A stretch of DNA of 64,000 nucleotides from Weizmannia acidilactici (lineage in GTDB: Bacteria > Bacillota > Bacilli > Bacillales > Bacillaceae_C): NCBI RefSeq assembly GCF_008974185.1, contig NZ_BKZP01000017.1:1-64000 (forward strand), read 5' to 3'. Below are positions 24,538 through 61,688 of the stretch, in pieces. Each line of letters begins with the position of its first letter. Positions within the stretch are counted from its first letter, which is position 1. Under the pieces are notes generated by a model. It worked only from the letters and a program-made list of their open reading frames with translations, had not been told where the DNA came from and ran no database searches. The translations under genes were made by a program, and so were the position numbers.

Positions 24538-24616
24538 TAGGACTTATGAACTAAATTTCAATCATGAACTGAAAAAATCCAAACAATATGTTAAAATTGT
24601 TAACAGTCGAATAATT

Positions 24617-24752
24617 TTTCCTTCGGGGCAGGGTGCAATTCCCGACCGGCGGTGATGAGGGTTCCCTCAAAGCCCGTGACCCATATTCCCGGAATATGGT
24701 GGATTTGGTGAAATTCCAAAGCCGACAGTGACAGTCTGGATGGGAGAAGGAT
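24617..24752 (+). promoter_or_regulatory. FMN riboswitch (RFN element)
   Basis: The segment has the highly conserved FMN aptamer blocks: CTTCGGGGCAGGGTGCAATT, CCCGACCGGCGGT, AGCCCGTGACCC, and GGATTTGGTGAAATTCC followed by CTGGATGGGAGAAGG. A terminator hairpin lies 50 nt downstream, so FMN probably stops transcription of the ribD-ribE-ribBA-ribH operon. Confidence 0.97.
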
Positions 24753-24800
24753 GACGCGTTAACAATTTGAATGGAACGTGTATTTCATCATGCCGTTTTG

Positions 24801-47604: not shown

Positions 47605-47709
47605 TTCTTATCAAGAGTGGTGGAGGGACTGGCCCAATGAAACCCGACAACCAGCATTTTTAAATGTATGGTGTTAATTCCAGCAGATATCCATCTGTAA
47701 AGATAAGAA
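47605..47709 (+). promoter_or_regulatory. SAM-I riboswitch (S-box)
   Basis: P1 is TTCTTATC (47605-47612) with GATAAGAA (47702-47709). Conserved core blocks follow: AAGAGTGGTGGAGGGACTGGCCC, ATGAAACCCGACAACC, GGTGTTAATTCCAGCAG. Downstream ATAAGAAAAC can pair with GTTTTCTTAT as an antiterminator. It should shut off the downstream transporter when SAM is plentiful. Confidence 0.96.
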
Positions 47710-50890: not shown

Positions 50891-50925
50891 AAAAAACGGG
50901 CGTATGATTCATGCGCCCGTTTTTT
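50891..50925. terminator. Bidirectional terminator
   Basis: AAAAAACGGGCG, a 10-nt loop and CGCCCGTTTTTT serve the ABC transporter operon on the plus strand. They also overlap the last codons of the convergent racemase-like gene on the minus strand. Confidence 0.88.
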
Positions 50926-52051
50926 CCTGCTTAGCGACACGGGAAAGGATAAACTGCTGCTTGTACCATTCGCGGGTCTTGGCGTCTGGATATACATAAG
51001 TTTTATGGACATACGGGGAAGTCATGGCCGTCAGCACTGCCCCGTAGTTCATGTAAAACCTTACTTCATCCCCCGGTTTAAGGATGGCATCTTTTGTATC
51101 GAGGATGATATGGTCGCTGCTGGATCCGAGGATTTCAAACGGTTGGACAGGGGTAAGGCCCGGCACGAGCACATCATGCCGCCCTGCCCCAACAATCGTC
51201 CTCCGCCTGTTTCCCCTGTCTTGGAAGGAAACCCGTTCCCCAAACGCATTTTTTCCAATCATCCCGTATGGCACGGATGGTTTGATTTTGGATTCAATGA
51301 CTTCTGCAACGAAACAAAACGCATCCTGGTATAAAGACGGGATGGCACGCCCACCTGATGTTTCCCGGCCCAGTAAAATCGATTCCCCGAGCCGGATGTT
51401 ATTGACGGCGCCGGCATCTTTCGTTTTCATCACCCAGTTGTAGTTGGCGGAATTGCCTCCGGAAACATAAGGAAGTTTGAGGGAAAACAGCTCCTGCATG
51501 GCACGCACAAAGCGGGAAAACTCCCTCATTTTTTGTTCTGTCGGCAGCACGCCTCCAAAGCAGGCGAAGTTTGTGCCGATCCCTGCTATTTCGATATCGG
51601 GATATTTCAGCACTTCGTGGATCATGGCAGGGGCATCTTTTAATAAAATGCCTTCCCTCAAATCCCCCATTTCCACCATTAAAATGATTTTGTGCTTTTT
51701 CTTCTGCCTTGCCGCTTCTGCCGACAACGCCCGGATGACATCGAGTTCCGTATTCATGCTGGTGTCTGCGTATTGAACGGTTTTTTCCACTTCACTGATG
51801 CCGGGGGAGCGCAATAAGATCAGGTCCGCTTTGATGCCGGCTCTTTTCAATTTTATGATATTGGCAATTTTTGAGTCTGCCAGGCTCGTAATGCCGCATT
51901 CCACCAAAGCAGCGGCAATCTTCAAGTCGGCAGCAACCCCTTTTACAACGCCTGTAACATCGATTCCTTTCCTTCCGTATATTTTTTTTAATGTTTTTGC
52001 ATTGTGTTTGATTTTTTCAAGATTGATTTCTACCCGCGGCAAAAGCACCAT
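50909..52051 (-). CDS. Alanine-racemase-like PLP enzyme (alanine/ornithine racemase family)
   Basis: The 380-residue protein has the fold-III PLP barrel of the alanine racemase superfamily: PRVEINLEKIKHNAKTLKKI, the PLP lysine in GVVKGVAADLKIA (Lys37), and LRLG/NIRLGESILLG-type segments near 240. It most resembles the alanine/ornithine racemase group rather than cell-wall Alr. Substrate is not evident. Its start overlaps the stop of the DUF1611 gene (TGATG), so the two form a coupled pair. The last residues lie within the shared terminator hairpin. Confidence 0.82.
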   Translation of the reverse strand: MVLLPRVEINLEKIKHNAKTLKKIYGRKGIDVTGVVKGVAADLKIAAALVECGITSLADSKIANIIKLKRAGIKADLILLRSPGISEVEKTVQYADTSMNTELDVIRALSAEAARQKKKHKIILMVEMGDLREGILLKDAPAMIHEVLKYPDIEIAGIGTNFACFGGVLPTEQKMREFSRFVRAMQELFSLKLPYVSGGNSANYNWVMKTKDAGAVNNIRLGESILLGRETSGGRAIPSLYQDAFCFVAEVIESKIKPSVPYGMIGKNAFGERVSFQDRGNRRRTIVGAGRHDVLVPGLTPVQPFEILGSSSDHIILDTKDAILKPGDEVRFYMNYGAVLTAMTSPYVHKTYVYPDAKTREWYKQQFILSRVAKQEKTGA

Positions 52052-53127
52052 CAGGAAACCACTGCCTTCTTCAGGGAAGGGAAGAAATCGATAATGGCAT
52101 CAATCATTTTATCCGTGCCGGTTTTTAACACATCGGAAACAGGAAGATGGTATGTTTCTTCATATTCACGGATCGTCTCTTCCAGTTCGCCGTCTGTCAT
52201 GCTTTCATGGTTCAGAGTAATCCCGATGACTTTTGTTTTTCCAAAGTGTTCAATCAAGCTGATTTCATCTTCTACTTTCGGCACTTCAGCAAACGGGAAA
52301 TCTGACAAAATTTTCCTTTTTGGGGCATGCTGCAAAATAACAGCTTGCGGCCTTGCACCTTTTAAAATGCCGACCGAGCTCGCATATGCGGGGTGGCTGA
52401 GCGCCCCCTGCCCTTCCACAATGATGATGTCCGGATGCTCGTTTTTATTGGCTCTTAGGACTTCACGCTCCAACTCGCCAATCAAAAACTGCAGCGGAAA
52501 AGCATCCATGGCGAAGCCGTATTGGGCCCCCTGGATCAAGCCGGTTTGGCCGGTTGCAATAAAGGCCGGTTTATAGCCTTTTTCTCTGAATCCCCTTTCA
52601 AGGAATTTCGCGGTAGTCCGCTTGCCGCAGGCGCCGTCTGTGCCCAGCACCGCAACAACAGGCGTATTGATGTTTAATATTTCACCCGTAAACAAGGTCC
52701 ACTCTTTTTTCGGCCTCGGTTTGCGGATGTCCCGGATGGTTACCCCGCATTCCCGTGCGCAGGCCATCATTTCTTCATCATCCGTCAAAAATTCCTGAAG
52801 CGGGTTGATGATGTTTAATCCGGCTTTCATTGCCTCGATAATGACTTCTCTTTCTTCCGGTTTCAAAAAGGCGTTTGTCGGCGCAATGCCGAAAATGAAA
52901 TCATCCGGTGTTTGTCCTGAATGGAGAAGTGCATCTTCCAGGTCTTTGCAAATCGGGATGCTGTTAAACTTGTTGTCGAGATATCGCCCGGCATCCTGCC
53001 CCTGTTTGCTGCTGTCAATGACGGCGGTAATGATATAATTGCCGGGTTCGCGGATCAGCCCGTTCGCTGTTTTTCCGTCTGTTGTGCCAAATTGATTTTC
53101 GCAATAAACAATTGCCCGTTTTTTCAT
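52051..53127 (-). CDS. DUF1611 family P-loop protein (DgcN-like)
   Basis: The 358-residue protein from ATG 53127 (GGAGGG 6 nt upstream; ATG 53133 is too close) has an N-terminal Rossmann-like DUF1611_N domain (GNYIITAVIDSSK, FIFGIAPTNAFLKPEER) and a C-terminal P-loop domain with GTDGACGKRTT (about 162-172) and IIIVEGQGALSHPAYA. Characterised relatives (DgcN) act on D-glutamate together with an epimerase-type partner. Pairing with an alanine-racemase-like enzyme points to D-amino-acid metabolism, but this is inference. Confidence 0.85.
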   Translation of the reverse strand: MKKRAIVYCENQFGTTDGKTANGLIREPGNYIITAVIDSSKQGQDAGRYLDNKFNSIPICKDLEDALLHSGQTPDDFIFGIAPTNAFLKPEEREVIIEAMKAGLNIINPLQEFLTDDEEMMACARECGVTIRDIRKPRPKKEWTLFTGEILNINTPVVAVLGTDGACGKRTTAKFLERGFREKGYKPAFIATGQTGLIQGAQYGFAMDAFPLQFLIGELEREVLRANKNEHPDIIIVEGQGALSHPAYASSVGILKGARPQAVILQHAPKRKILSDFPFAEVPKVEDEISLIEHFGKTKVIGITLNHESMTDGELEETIREYEETYHLPVSDVLKTGTDKMIDAIIDFFPSLKKAVVS

Positions 53128-53227
53128 TGCCATCCCTCCATATATTGAAATTCAGGCAACATAAAAAAGAACACCTAATGGCTTCAAATAGTAAAAATAC
53201 TAAAGAAGATAGCTGTTCGAAAGTGAT

Positions 53228-53402: not shown

Positions 53403-54530
53403 TTAAGCCAACCGCATTTTAAAATCTTCGTACCCGAATTCGCGGACGACCTTGCAGTCCCCGTTCCGGTCCCGGATGGCGATGGCCGGGAGCGGCATGC
53501 CGTTAAATGTCGTGTTTTTCACCATCGTATAGATGGCCATGTCGCCAAATACAAGCCGGTCGCCTTCTTTTAACGGCCGGTCGAAAGAATAATCCCCGAT
53601 CGTGTCGCCGGTGAGGCAGGTCTGGCCGCCGAGACGGTACGTATACGGTTTTTCCCCTGGTTCCCCGGACCCGAACAGCGGCGGGCGGTACGGCATTTCG
53701 AGCACATCCGGCATATGGCAGGAAGCGGATGTGTCGAGAATGGCAATATCCATGCCGTTTTTCACCGTATCGAGCACTGTCGTGACGAGATAGCCGGCAT
53801 TCAAGGCAACGGCTTCGCCAGGTTCGAGATATACTTCCAAGCCGTATTGGTCCTGCATCCGTTGAATGCATTTTTCCAGCAAAGGGATATCGTAATCTTC
53901 CCTTGTAATATGGTGGCCGCCGCCGAAATTGATCCATTCCATTTGCGGGAGCCACTCGCCGAACTTTTGTTCAACAGCATTCAAAGTTGTTTCCAAATCA
54001 TCCGCGTTTTGCTGGCAGAGGGTGTGGAAATGCAGCCCGGAAACGCCGTCCAGCAATTCGGGACGGAAATGTTCTTTTGTCACGCCGAAGCGGGATCCCG
54101 GGGAACACGGGTCATAAATGGCGTGGCCGACCTGGGTGGAACATTCCGGATTGATGCGCAGGCCGATCTTTTTGCCGGCTTTCAGCACTTTATCCTTAAA
54201 TTTCTCGAGCTGCGAGAAGGAATTAAAAATAATATGGTCACAGATCGAGATAATTTCATCGATTTCATCATCACGGTAGGCAGCCGAAAAAACATGGTTT
54301 TCTTTACCCATTTCCTCATAGCCGAGGCGGGCTTCATACAGGCCACTTGCCGTTGTGCCGCTTAAGTACTTCCCAATGAGCGGATACAGCGTATACATCG
54401 AAAAAGCTTTCTGGGCCAAGACAATTTTGCATCCGGTCCGTTTCATGACGCCATTTAAAATTTTCAGGTTGTTTTCAAGTTTCTTTTCATCAATGACATA
54501 GCACGGGGTTGGCAGTTGTTCGATCTTCAT
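53403..54530 (-). CDS. nspC: Carboxynorspermidine/carboxyspermidine decarboxylase
   Basis: The 375-residue PLP enzyme of the fold-III decarboxylase family removes the carboxyl group from carboxy(nor)spermidine to give (nor)spermidine. Seen: PLP lysine Lys41 in VLAQKAFSMYTL, RINPECSTQVGHAIYDPC, the HFHTLCQQNADDL segment, NFGGGHHITREDYD and YLEPGEAVALNAGYL. Its ATG overlaps the stop of the upstream dehydrogenase gene, the expected partner. B. subtilis instead uses SpeD/SpeE for spermidine. Confidence 0.95.
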   Translation of the reverse strand: MKIEQLPTPCYVIDEKKLENNLKILNGVMKRTGCKIVLAQKAFSMYTLYPLIGKYLSGTTASGLYEARLGYEEMGKENHVFSAAYRDDEIDEIISICDHIIFNSFSQLEKFKDKVLKAGKKIGLRINPECSTQVGHAIYDPCSPGSRFGVTKEHFRPELLDGVSGLHFHTLCQQNADDLETTLNAVEQKFGEWLPQMEWINFGGGHHITREDYDIPLLEKCIQRMQDQYGLEVYLEPGEAVALNAGYLVTTVLDTVKNGMDIAILDTSASCHMPDVLEMPYRPPLFGSGEPGEKPYTYRLGGQTCLTGDTIGDYSFDRPLKEGDRLVFGDMAIYTMVKNTTFNGMPLPAIAIRDRNGDCKVVREFGYEDFKMRLA

Positions 54531-55729
54531 CAGTCCACAAGCTCCGGATCAAAGCTTTCTTTCCACGGCAGGCCCCATTTGTTCAGGGCTTCCATGAACG
54601 GGTCCGGATCAAACTCTTCGATGTTGTAGACGCCTTTGTAATCCCATGTGCCGGTCATCAGCATCATTGCGCCGATCATTGCCGGAACGCCGGTCGTATA
54701 AGAAACCGCCTGCGAACCCACTTCTTTGTAGCAGGCTTCGTGGTCGCACACATTGTACAAATAGTATGTTTTGTCTTTGCCATCTTTTTTTCCGCGGAAG
54801 ATGCAGCCGATATTCGTTTTGCCTTTTGTGCGCGGGCCGAGTGAAGCGGGATCCGGCAGCACAGCTTTTAAGAACTGGAGCGGCACGATTTGTTTGCCTT
54901 CGAATTCAATCGGTTCAATGGAAGTCATGCCGACATTTTCGAGGCATTTCAGGTGCGTCAGGTAGCTCTCGCTGAATGTCATGAAGAAACGGATCCGCTT
55001 GATGCCCGGGATGTTCAGCGCGAGGGATTCAATTTCTTCATGGTGCAACAAATACATATCCCGCTCGCCGATTTCAGGGAAGTTGTAAACGCGCTTGATT
55101 TCCATCGGCTTCGTTTCGACCCACTTGCCGTTTTCCCAGTAGCTGCCGTTTGCAGAAACTTCGCGGATGTTGATTTCCGGATTGAAGTTTGTTGCGAACG
55201 GGTAGCCATGGTCTCCGGCATTGCAGTCCAAAATATCAATATACTCAATTTCATCGAAATGGTGTTTCAACGCATAGGCGGAAAAAACGCCGGTCACGCC
55301 CGGGTCAAAGCCGCTCCCCAAAAGTGCGGTAATGCCGGCTTCTTTAAAGCGTTCGCGGTAAGCCCACTGCCATTTGTATTCAAACTTTGCCGTATCCTCG
55401 GGTTCGTAGTTGGCTGTATCGAGATAGTTTGTTTTTGTGGCGAGGCAAGCTTCCATGATGGTTAAATCCTGGTATGGCAACGCCAAGTTCATGACAACAT
55501 CCGGTTTTTCTTTTTCAATTAGAGCAATCAGCTCTTCCACATGATTGGCATCCACTTGCGCCGTGGTGACTTTCGTTTTGCCGCCGTCCAGTTTTACTTT
55601 TAACGCATCACATTTCGATTTTGTCCGGCTTGCAATGCAGATTTCTTCAAATACTTCGCTGTTTTGGCAACATTTATAGGCAGCTACCGAGGCCACGCCG
55701 CCGCAACCGATAATCAATGCTTTTCCCAT
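54530..55729 (-). CDS. Carboxynorspermidine synthase (saccharopine dehydrogenase-like)
   Basis: The 399-residue NADPH-dependent dehydrogenase condenses aspartate semialdehyde with a diamine. Its N-terminal Rossmann motif is LIIGCGGVASVAAYKC, and internal blocks NYLDTANYEPEDTAKFEY, GSGFDPGVTGVFSAYA and YTTGVPAMIGAMMLMTG are characteristic of the CANSDH/Lys1 family. ATG 55729 has GGAG 8 nt upstream. It is the first gene of a two-gene operon with nspC and is preceded by a long, hairpin-rich leader. Confidence 0.93.
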   Translation of the reverse strand: MGKALIIGCGGVASVAAYKCCQNSEVFEEICIASRTKSKCDALKVKLDGGKTKVTTAQVDANHVEELIALIEKEKPDVVMNLALPYQDLTIMEACLATKTNYLDTANYEPEDTAKFEYKWQWAYRERFKEAGITALLGSGFDPGVTGVFSAYALKHHFDEIEYIDILDCNAGDHGYPFATNFNPEINIREVSANGSYWENGKWVETKPMEIKRVYNFPEIGERDMYLLHHEEIESLALNIPGIKRIRFFMTFSESYLTHLKCLENVGMTSIEPIEFEGKQIVPLQFLKAVLPDPASLGPRTKGKTNIGCIFRGKKDGKDKTYYLYNVCDHEACYKEVGSQAVSYTTGVPAMIGAMMLMTGTWDYKGVYNIEEFDPDPFMEALNKWGLPWKESFDPELVD

Positions 55730-55789
55730 TCTCTTATCTCCTTCAAAATAGATTTTAAACTTGTGGCATGCCGGAAAAAGGCAAACAAA

Positions 55790-55834
55790 AAAGCAAGTGC
55801 AGATCGCGGGCCCGCGCACAACACTTGCTTCATA
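55790..55834 (-). terminator. Leader terminator/attenuator upstream of the carboxynorspermidine operon
   Basis: On the minus strand AAGCAAGTG and CACTTGC enclose a self-complementary CGCGGGCCCGCG core, followed by TTTTTTG, about 60 nt before the start codon. A second hairpin (ATATCCG/CGGATAT, about 55862-55885) lies just upstream and ends in TGCTTTTTT. Two stem-loops with T tracts in a leader suggest attenuation or a riboswitch. Confidence 0.65.
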
Positions 55835-55977
55835 AAAATCATCATATTAAAAAAGCATACGAATATCCGGGATAAACGGATATCCATCTGCCATAAAAGT
55901 CCTGGGACATTATGGAAGAAAGCTTTTTAATATTCAAATCGGATCAGAGTCTATATAGCAAATAATTACTTTTACCA

Positions 55978-56185
55978 CTCTTATTGATCGTTTCACAAGT
56001 TGATGTGCACACGCACCGGTTGTAAAGTAACCAACTTATAAAATTTGAGCTTCCAACTCAATCAATAAGGCAACCAAAAGTTGCCGATTCGGCATTTGAC
56101 CCGGCTGTCCGTATGGCCTTAACTTCCTTGGTCAAAATTATCTGCTTGGAAAGACTCTTGACGTTGAATATTCGCTTTCCAAATC
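55978..56185. other. Multi-hairpin element of unknown identity
   Basis: Nested inverted repeats fill this stretch. An outer pair TTATTGAT (55981-55988)/ATCAATAA (56061-56068) encloses AAGTTG/CAACTT (around 55997-56037) with two inner hairpins (GTGC-GCAC and GGTT-AACC) and TTGAG/CTCAA (about 56045-56061). Next come GGCAAC/GTTGCC (56069-56085), GCCGATTCGGC (56083-56093), TTTGACC/GGTCAAA (56095-56136) and a pair built on CTTTCCAA (about 56150-56185). It is either the leader RNA of the minus-strand polyamine operon or an IS/MITE-like repeat. A fortuitous-looking plus-strand open frame (56026-56271) spans part of it. Confidence 0.5.
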
Positions 56186-56389
56186 ATACTCTTCTATCCT
56201 ATCAGCATGCAGGCAAAATAGCAAGGAGAAATTTTTTCAGTATGTGTCAAGTTTTTCTCGACATCGTTTAAAAATCAGTGATGTCCAGCCACTCTTTTTG
56301 TACGCTTTTGGCTACCGCACTTTGCTTGCTTCCCTGGATAAGGGCAATCCAAAAAGCCTTTAAACCGGGAATATGGGCACCTCTTTTTG

Positions 56390-56508
56390 ATGATCGCGAA
56401 ATTTACTCGCTTTCCGCAAGCGTCGCGAGCCTCCTCGCTCGTCCCTCAAGCACACTGGGTCTCTTCTTGCTCGCTTTTCCCGCAGGAGTCTCAGAAATTA
56501 GCGATCAT
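56390..56508. repeat. Bacillaceae-type interspersed repeat, about 119 bp
   Basis: ATGATCGC (56390-56397) and GCGATCAT (56501-56508) are terminal inverted repeats around a segment containing CTCGCTTTCCGC, GCGAGCCTCCTCGCTCGTCC and CCCGCAGGAGTCTC. On the minus strand this reads GAGACTCCTGCGGG ... GGACGAGCGAGGAGGCTCGC ... GCGGAAAGCGAG, a pattern I recall as a widespread non-coding repeat in Bacillaceae intergenic regions. The overlapping 96-residue reading frame (56278-56568) is thus unlikely to be a gene. Confidence 0.65.
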
Positions 56509-56807
56509 TATATATCCTCAGCTTTTTATAGGATGTTGGAATTGCCCCTTATCCAGGTGAAGATATGACAACCTAAAAATCTTGCTTAAATTCCCTATTG
56601 CCGATGAAGTGCTTGTATACAGGCTGATCGATCCCTATTTTTCCCTCGAAAAATATTTTACACATACGGCATAAAATATGGTGCCCCTCGGCATGGGGAT
56701 CACGGTTTCGGGCTTCTGCGTGATGTCGCCAATATGAATGATTTGCTGGCGGCGGACGGCCACAATATGTAAAAGAAACAGCCAATGTTTTGTTGGCCGG
56801 CCGCCGA
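56509..56807. other. Gene-free stretch downstream of the amylase pseudogene
   Basis: No gene is supported. On the minus strand about 56630-56765 a frame reads HIVAVRRQQIIHIGDITQKP and on through MPRGTIFYAVCVKYF to a stop, which looks protein-like but has no start or ribosome-binding site. It may be the end of a degraded gene; I do not recognise it. Confidence 0.3.
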
Positions 56808-58310
<1,503 letters not shown>

Positions 58311-61573: not shown

Positions 61574-61634
61574 AAGGGGGTTTACATGCCCGGCAAAATT
61601 TTTTAAAATAGGAACAAAACAACTACCCGATCGG

Positions 61635-61670
61635 GAGAGGTTCATAGCTCAACCCTCTATAAAAAACTAT
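61635..61670 (+). promoter_or_regulatory. PreQ1-I riboswitch
   Basis: AGAGGTTCATAGCTCAACCCTCT followed by ATAAAAAACTA matches the compact preQ1 class I aptamer: stem AGAGG/CCTCT and the A-rich pseudoknot tail. It precedes queF, a preQ1 synthesis gene, and a terminator. Confidence 0.93.
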
Positions 61671-61688
61671 GGATAAATGGAATGTACC

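Follow-up and report, generated by a model that had tools for sequence, protein, structure and literature searches.

A large conserved leader RNA of polyamine genes in Weizmannia acidilactici and other Bacillota as a candidate riboswitch

A conserved, single-copy leader RNA

What is the densely folded RNA encoded in front of the polyamine operon of Weizmannia acidilactici? In the stretch analyzed here (64,000 nucleotides of contig NZ_BKZP01000017.1, positions 1 to 64,000, referred to as the window), this operon lies on the minus strand, as do all of its features given below, and a structured leader RNA of ~400 nucleotides (nt) precedes its carboxyspermidine-dehydrogenase-like gene. The original prediction had described nested inverted repeats at 55780–56185 that matched no known riboswitch, and had offered two explanations: a new polyamine-responsive leader, or a repeat derived from an insertion sequence (IS). 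We conclude that the RNA is probably a cis-acting, transcription-attenuating candidate riboswitch of the OFF type, with a polyamine, spermidine first, as its putative ligand. The computed basis of this conclusion is a conserved RNA, its structure, its association with genes, a terminator, and a mutually exclusive pairing.

The nested repeats are present as described. An inverted-repeat search returned 19 pairs in 55780–56185, and the minus strand of 55780–56187 folds at −131.1 kcal/mol, a z of −6.42 relative to 100 dinucleotide shuffles (−97.3, standard deviation [sd] 5.3); the plus strand folds more weakly (z = −3.89). Four terminator-like sites were found in 55650–56400, all on the minus strand, where 0.6 are expected. 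The predicted 8-bp outer pair is perfect (56146–56153/56175–56182), the three-way-like arrangement corresponds to a helix, P7 (55991–56002/56032–56043), that encloses two hairpins, and the two stem-loops with T tracts are the terminator-like hairpin T1 (55849–55891, also given as 55859–55887) and the terminator T2 (55787–55830; arms 55791–55810/55811–55830, with six T at 55787–55792). The region as predicted stands, but its ends shift: the unit runs from just upstream of 56185, with a −10-like box at 56196–56204, down to ~55787. That the structure is real we regard as settled, because alignment and model covariation in relatives support it.

The claim that no known riboswitch is matched holds for the riboswitch families of Rfam 15, none of which, nor a T-box, reaches its gathering score in the leader, but 46 bases (56134–56089) match RF02440, "Streptococcus sRNA SpF59 (ldcC RNA)", at 58 bits against a gathering score of 37.2. 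RF02440 was also the only result of a cmscan of 55650–56400 up to an E-value of 1, which gave no match to RF00162. The family corresponds to the P2 and P3 region of the leader RNA; it is typed as Gene/sRNA and spans 54 model positions, about a quarter of the conserved RNA, whereas the RNA described here has a core of 213 positions and an attenuator. When 20 other loci were scanned at the Rfam gathering threshold, only RF02440 and one tRNA were found, with no family over the 3′ part. The window and 18 of these 20 loci match RF02440; the other two (L186 and L190) match our core model and fall short of the RF02440 gathering score.

A search of 60 genomes with the leader DNA gave 18 matching genomes including its own, the 17 others over ~230–550 bases at 74%–84% identity, and aligned relatives have near-identical stretches over ~200 bases. 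Within the class, RF02440 occurs in 31 of 398 genomes, and within the order of genome G235 in five of 295, four of them above the cut-off. Our covariance model of the core, R1, matched 25 of 398 genomes of the phylum including its own, with one copy in each; the five weakest matches (28–47 bits) yielded no locus. Searches spanning more than 40 genomes ran with stricter filters and lose weak matches. An exact pattern applied to one collection gave at least 117 stretches (L054–L170), and the matches listed come from Bacilli, many Clostridia, Acidaminococcus, Phascolarctobacterium, and Streptococcus suis, and also from contigs with unverified labels of metagenome-assembled genomes (Synergistaceae, Spirochaetes). 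This pattern fixes TACGGACAG...CCG, so that invariance at those bases is partly a matter of choice. With the 213-position model, the full core is found in Bacilli, Clostridia, and Negativicutes.

This distribution bears on the second of the predicted explanations, a repeat of mobile or IS origin. A multi-copy repeat (42 genomic matches) adjoins the leader, but the leader itself is present once in its own 3.19-Mb genome, as is its RF02440 part; the many identical copies at unrelated loci that mark a mobile repeat were not found there, and the 25 matching genomes of the 398 have one match each. Since its gene neighbors are also kept across classes, we take a mobile origin to be ruled out by copy number, with a negligible chance of being right. 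The adjoining repeat (56370–56530; 42 matches including itself, at 75%–100% identity) is a multi-copy element of the intergenic region, separate and distinct from the leader.

Structure of the core

The conserved core (R1 positions 1–213, helices P1b to P9) occupies 55944–56146 and consists of ten nested helices and a possible pseudoknot. The helices were drawn by hand from the alignment with RNAalifold as a guide. Removal of redundancy reduced 154 sequences to 101, of which 78 were aligned (A2; 82 passed the length filter, five were left out, and L056 was added), and 53 of these were kept (A3) after 25 divergent or insert-bearing rows had been removed by hand. In the 53 sequences, aligned by MAFFT blind to structure, 93.4% of the cells pair, 20 of the 58 pairs have changes on both sides compared with 12.7 in shuffles, and none of 500 shuffles reached any of five measures; sliding one strand by a single base lowers pairing to below 47%. 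A larger alignment of 99 sequences (A4) has both-side changes in 41 of 58 pairs and 527 such cells against 136 in shuffles, figures that are biased towards the model because the alignment was fitted to it. R1, with 213 positions and 58 pairs, scores the window at 209.5 bits and matches 99 of 100 loci; its sole miss, L144, is a chance pattern match without the core. The leader has, in short, a conserved aptamer-like domain with the covariation by which riboswitches are recognized.

Upstream of R1 stands the outer helix P0, a perfect 8-nt pair of TTGGAAAG (56175–56182) and CTTTCCAA (56146–56153). Across 62 nonredundant loci its native arms pair at −6.1 kcal/mol compared with −4.3 (sd 0.23) for arms swapped between loci (0 of 5,000 permutations as good), and several individual loci show almost no pairing. 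The loop of P0 carries the 5′ strand of P1a, GAGTC (56153–56157, one base shared with P0), which can pair with 55947–55951; written as RNA, GAGUC and the GACUC at the core's 3′ end may form a pseudoknot, and their match is exact in 46 of the 95 rows that have a GAGUC-like word (129 examined). Within the core follow the inverted pair P1b (55957–55967/56136–56146), the RF02440 part (56089–56134), the P4 hairpin GGCAAC/GTTGCC (56069–56085), all six pairs of which have changed on both sides, P5, whose 5′ strand TTATTGA (56062–56068) pairs with 55981–55987, and the three-way element (55991–56043), in which P7 (56032–56043 with 55991–56002) encloses P8 and P9. U-G pairs in P7 are near-invariant in the 53-sequence alignment (53 of 53 at one position and 47 of 53 at another), and one might guess at a role in cation binding. 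In Bacilli an outer pairing is added, a perfect 9-nt match of 56164–56172 in the P0 region with 55929–55937 (TTGAATATT/AATATTCAA). In 31 of 38 Bacilli loci, taken after removal of redundancy, the P0 region and the 75 bases past the core pair at −25.2 kcal/mol when native and −21.9 (sd 0.62) when swapped (0 of 5,000), a test that singles out no one helix.

Two further contacts were considered. A contact P10 between the P8 loop ACUUU and AAAGU was kept out of the model, since AAAGU persists, as judged by eye, where its loop partner is lost. The invariant loop could also meet UGCCG in a CGG/CCG contact, but this shows little variation, and its bases are among those fixed by the scan pattern. The invariant loop CAUACGGACA is changed to AUCGGUGU or AACGGUGU in two loci of the same genus as the window (L032 and L033) and one of the same family (L044), with the flanking GGC/GCC stem kept; this is possibly a specificity variant close to the window.

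A probable attenuator before polyamine genes

T2 is an intrinsic terminator, and most leaders of the class carry one like it. A score for a hairpin with a T-run past the core reaches 12 or more in 109 of 130 leaders, compared with six of 129 dinucleotide-shuffled ones, and 15 or more in 87 leaders and no shuffled one. The left arm of the terminator, which in many leaders carries GCAAGUUGUGC or GCAAGUGUGAUGC and takes other forms where P9 differs, is complementary to the 3′ strands of P9 and P7 in the core (55994–56014, the switch strand). When an 18-base window was slid along the core, the mean duplex energy with the arm peaked at this strand (−12.6 kcal/mol) and was mostly −3 to −8 elsewhere. 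A terminator candidate is present in 127 of the 130 leaders, and for 118 of these, reduced to 63 loci by removal of redundancy, the pairing was also compared between native and swapped partners: native arms and cores pair at −13.7 kcal/mol and swapped ones at −11.0 (sd 0.32), with none of 5,000 permutations as good. Core strand and terminator arm have therefore changed in concert, something not required of a terminator by itself. In the window the two structures are well matched in energy (antiterminator −23.9 and terminator −21.8 kcal/mol). Mutually exclusive pairings in an expression platform, a further mark of riboswitches, are thus present by computation.

T1 is found only in some relatives and is not general: among 38 Bacilli leaders, a search with its pattern found nothing in 11, and in the 27 with a match the hairpin is in several cases weakly folded. 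In the window its right arm is 76% complementary to the invariant 5′ domain, but this pairing was dropped as a chance match because 1,186 of 5,000 swaps over 24 loci were as good as the native combination. A frame of 22 codons that runs across T1 in the window was likewise dropped, since by eye it is not kept in L033 or L034.

A candidate promoter lies immediately upstream of the leader, with a −35 box TTGCTA (56219–56224), a spacing of 17 bases, and an extended −10 box TGATAGGAT (56196–56204; TAGGAT preceded by TG), both boxes identified by eye. The −10 box is conserved in aligned relatives, which have TGATAATAT and similar sequences, and we infer that this promoter is the one used.

The first gene that the RNA would control is the carboxy(nor)spermidine dehydrogenase-like gene (54530–55729; NF043000, E-value 2.5e-126, below the curated cut-off), with a Shine-Dalgarno-like AAGGAGATAAG at 55733–55743. 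Behind it in the putative operon come nspC, for carboxynorspermidine decarboxylase (53403–54530; TIGR01047, 505 bits, above the cut-off), a DgcN-like gene (52051–53133), and an Orr-like (ornithine racemase) gene (50909–52051), the last two below cut-off. Taking as first open reading frame (ORF) one of at least 100 amino acids within 700 bases, which was obtained for 107 of 118 loci (the other 11 lie mostly at locus ends), we found a polyamine gene in first place in 103 of the 107 loci listed (phmmer with four representatives, E-value 1e-5): 38 Orn/Lys/Arg decarboxylases, 33 SpeD, 21 carboxyspermidine-dehydrogenase-like and 11 PotA-like genes. A Pfam tally of the first ORFs gives 37, 33, 21, and 11, and NCBIfam names agree. 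The remaining four are a transposase (L051), a P-II protein (L115), the chance match L144, and an unlabeled ORF (L162). In L115 the P-II nitrogen regulatory gene (1554–1952) stands between the RNA and a gene for a TOBE-domain ABC transporter ATPase, a surprising partner for polyamine control.

Because the pattern could bias this association, the loci from the R1 search of 398 genomes were used as well. Of its 20 loci, four are from the window's own genome or from already-known genomes, and all of the other 16 precede a polyamine gene (six SpeD, six decarboxylase, and four dehydrogenase), although the 16 are not wholly independent (the contig of L171 is, at 44605 nt, as long as that of L082, and L182–L184 belong to one genus). 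The RNA is thus the leader of one pathway's genes in 103 of 107 and 16 of 16 loci, with L052 and L053, discussed below, as exceptions.

Mechanism, ligand, and significance

What the RNA responds to, and in which direction, we infer from this arrangement. RNA polymerase would begin near 56190 on the minus strand and transcribe the core. With ligand bound, a polyamine by our reading and spermidine first, P7 and P9 would hold the strand ...GCACAUCAACUUGUG, the left arm of T2 would stay free, T2 would form, and transcription would stop before the dehydrogenase gene. Without ligand the same strand would pair with the T2 left arm (AAGCAAGUGUUGUGC...) as an antiterminator, and the operon would be read. 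The leader would accordingly be an OFF switch if the ligand stabilizes the core as in most such switches, and this direction fits feedback by a product.

The choice of ligand follows from the genes. The RNA precedes the S-adenosylmethionine (SAM)-dependent route to spermidine (SpeD), the SAM-independent dehydrogenase/decarboxylase route, decarboxylases upstream of these, and PotA-like genes. Spermidine is the common product or cargo of the SpeD route, the dehydrogenase route, the decarboxylases, and PotA-like uptake. Because both routes and the uptake genes carry the RNA and share this product, a polyamine, with spermidine first, is the most likely ligand. Of the proposal of a new polyamine-responsive leader, then, the place, structure, gene association, and attenuator design are supported, and the polyamine response is what the genes suggest. 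The same attenuator could instead answer to ornithine, arginine, lysine, agmatine, putrescine, or a SAM derivative, an alternative that draws on the amino-acid decarboxylases being the commonest first gene (38 of the 107 loci listed) and on the fact that sequence does not reveal ligand specificity. We consider it unlikely: among the same loci the RNA also stands before SpeD (33), the SAM-independent dehydrogenase (21), and PotA-like genes (11), and SAM derivatives or single amino acids would not be expected to fit all four kinds of gene.

It is also conceivable, though rather improbable, that the polyamine is sensed by a protein or a translating ribosome and that the RNA is only the platform. 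Large leaders can bind protein, and the available text of PMC8632094 describes, for ornithine decarboxylase genes, an odc1 leader element with an upstream ORF (uORF). In the present leaders no reading frame is shared, and a leader peptide or uORF was rejected on that ground: ATG frames have no common position (no 10-nt bin holds more than 36 of 130 leaders), the 12 commonest bins lack a motif like a ribosome site, and the spacing TATTGAT..CTTGTGAA occurs in each of the three phases (52, 42, and 28 of 122). No shared regulator gene was seen among the first ORFs that might point to a protein sensor. By its description the odc1 motif resembles our RNA in being a leader before a polyamine gene and differs in its uORF, which is not conserved here; the potE motif WRC-18-1, again compared by description, is similar in a possible polyamine link (both from the available parts of PMC8632094).

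Several observations weigh against our conclusion or against parts of it. RNAalifold alone recovers P2, P2a, P3, P4, P5, P6, and P7 together with a local hairpin that competes with P1a; it omits P1b, P8, and P9 and prefers another partner for the 3′ strand of P1a, a helix that is conserved yet hardly covaries. P9 is the least supported helix, with pairs in 51.7%–76.9% of cells in the 53-sequence alignment (51.7% for three of its pairs) and 74.0% in the 99-sequence one. The swap tests handle relatedness only through the removal of near-identical loci. A standard promoter scan omits the proposed TTGCTA/TAGGAT promoter and gives a minus-strand site at 55909–55937, inside the leader and downstream of the core, in a scan that found two sites where 1.7 are expected. 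An M28 peptidase gene follows the weak matches L052 and L053 (49 and 53 bits). Elsewhere in the genome lie two matches above cut-off to the SpeD family, one to the SpeE family, and two to Orn/Lys/Arg decarboxylases; since the RNA is single-copy, not every polyamine gene is under its control. In locus L190 the 3′ part of the core (1501–1675) is present and the RF02440 part is missing, a hint that the latter may not be the whole pocket. Lastly, according to the available text of PMC10853860, a spermidine riboswitch of another fold meets the same need.

Two of these cases are of interest in themselves. In L190 an apparent plain hairpin replaces the RF02440 domain before an Orn/Lys/Arg decarboxylase gene. 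L052 (1483–1689) and L053 (1486–1690) are divergent members from the order of G235, before the M28 peptidase gene, and possibly have another ligand or have lost function.

The spermidine riboswitch of another fold is described in the accessible parts of PMC10853860 as a rare variant of SAM-I, located before ldcC, speE, and speB, that acts as an OFF switch through a terminator and antiterminator; earlier claims of polyamine riboswitches are there called unconvincing. Our leader, as proposed here, resembles it in controlling polyamine genes (speE, speB, and ldcC for the variant) and in this OFF design, and differs in its helices and conserved bases, as far as that text presents them, and in having no RF00162 match. 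The RF00162 architecture is absent from 55650–56400 up to an E-value of 1, and we rejected the SAM-I variant as an identity for the leader. The distributions differ too, the leader RNA occurring in several classes of Bacillota and the SAM-I variant being rare and narrow in the available account (PMC10853860). No description of the leader RNA as a riboswitch was found among the papers listed in searches of open-licence literature; the Rfam alias "ldcC RNA" means that a fragment has already been named, so part of it may be known outside that literature.

We take the pneumococcal RNA F59 to be the source of RF02440, and the gene SP0916 presumably encodes lysine decarboxylase. F59, or srn235, lies between SP0915 and SP0916 and is treated as a small RNA (sRNA) in the available portions of three papers (PMC3395615, PMC12323649, PMC4387999). 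A trans-acting sRNA, as SpF59 is typed in Rfam, would accord with its detection as a discrete RNA of 82 nt (PMC3395615, in part) and its place among sRNAs with a lung phenotype (PMC4387999, in part). We hold this to be very unlikely for the present RNA, which sits before polyamine genes with a terminator coupled to its core; a terminated leader may resemble an sRNA in such data, and the span given for srn235/F59 in the accessible part of PMC12323649 (869478–869804 of TIGR4, 327 nt) is near leader length. That length fits a leader terminated before its gene and is, in a relative, the nearest there is to transcription evidence.

Elsewhere in the window, Rfam finds three riboswitches on the plus strand: FMN (24615–24755), SAM (S box; 47605–47709), and PreQ1 (61631–61676). 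By eye, the ORFs after the SAM riboswitch resemble a set for an amino-acid ABC transporter. On the minus strand, an alpha-amylase gene (56808–58268) looks broken, as it is divided between two ORFs: 56808–57917 matches the family only from profile position 118, and 57930–58268 resembles the missing start when judged by eye.

The leader is an orphan riboswitch candidate, unusual in its size, breadth, and consistency of gene association. We lean, if only slightly, towards a larger claim, namely that it represents a second class of spermidine riboswitch, widespread and unrelated in structure to the first, with a core of ~210 nt, probably pseudoknotted, a general polyamine sensor of many Bacillota that would gate both spermidine routes and uptake through one terminator/antiterminator scheme. 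Polyamines are near-universal, and the one validated spermidine riboswitch found in the literature searched is, by the available text of PMC10853860, the rare SAM-I variant. How an RNA discriminates among small flexible polycations is an open recognition problem, which the present set of sequences makes directly testable. Should spermidine prove to be its ligand, the RNA would account for feedback by polyamines in many Gram-positive bacteria, including gut Clostridia and Streptococcus, and the pneumococcal sRNA listed with a lung phenotype would become the leader of a polyamine operon.
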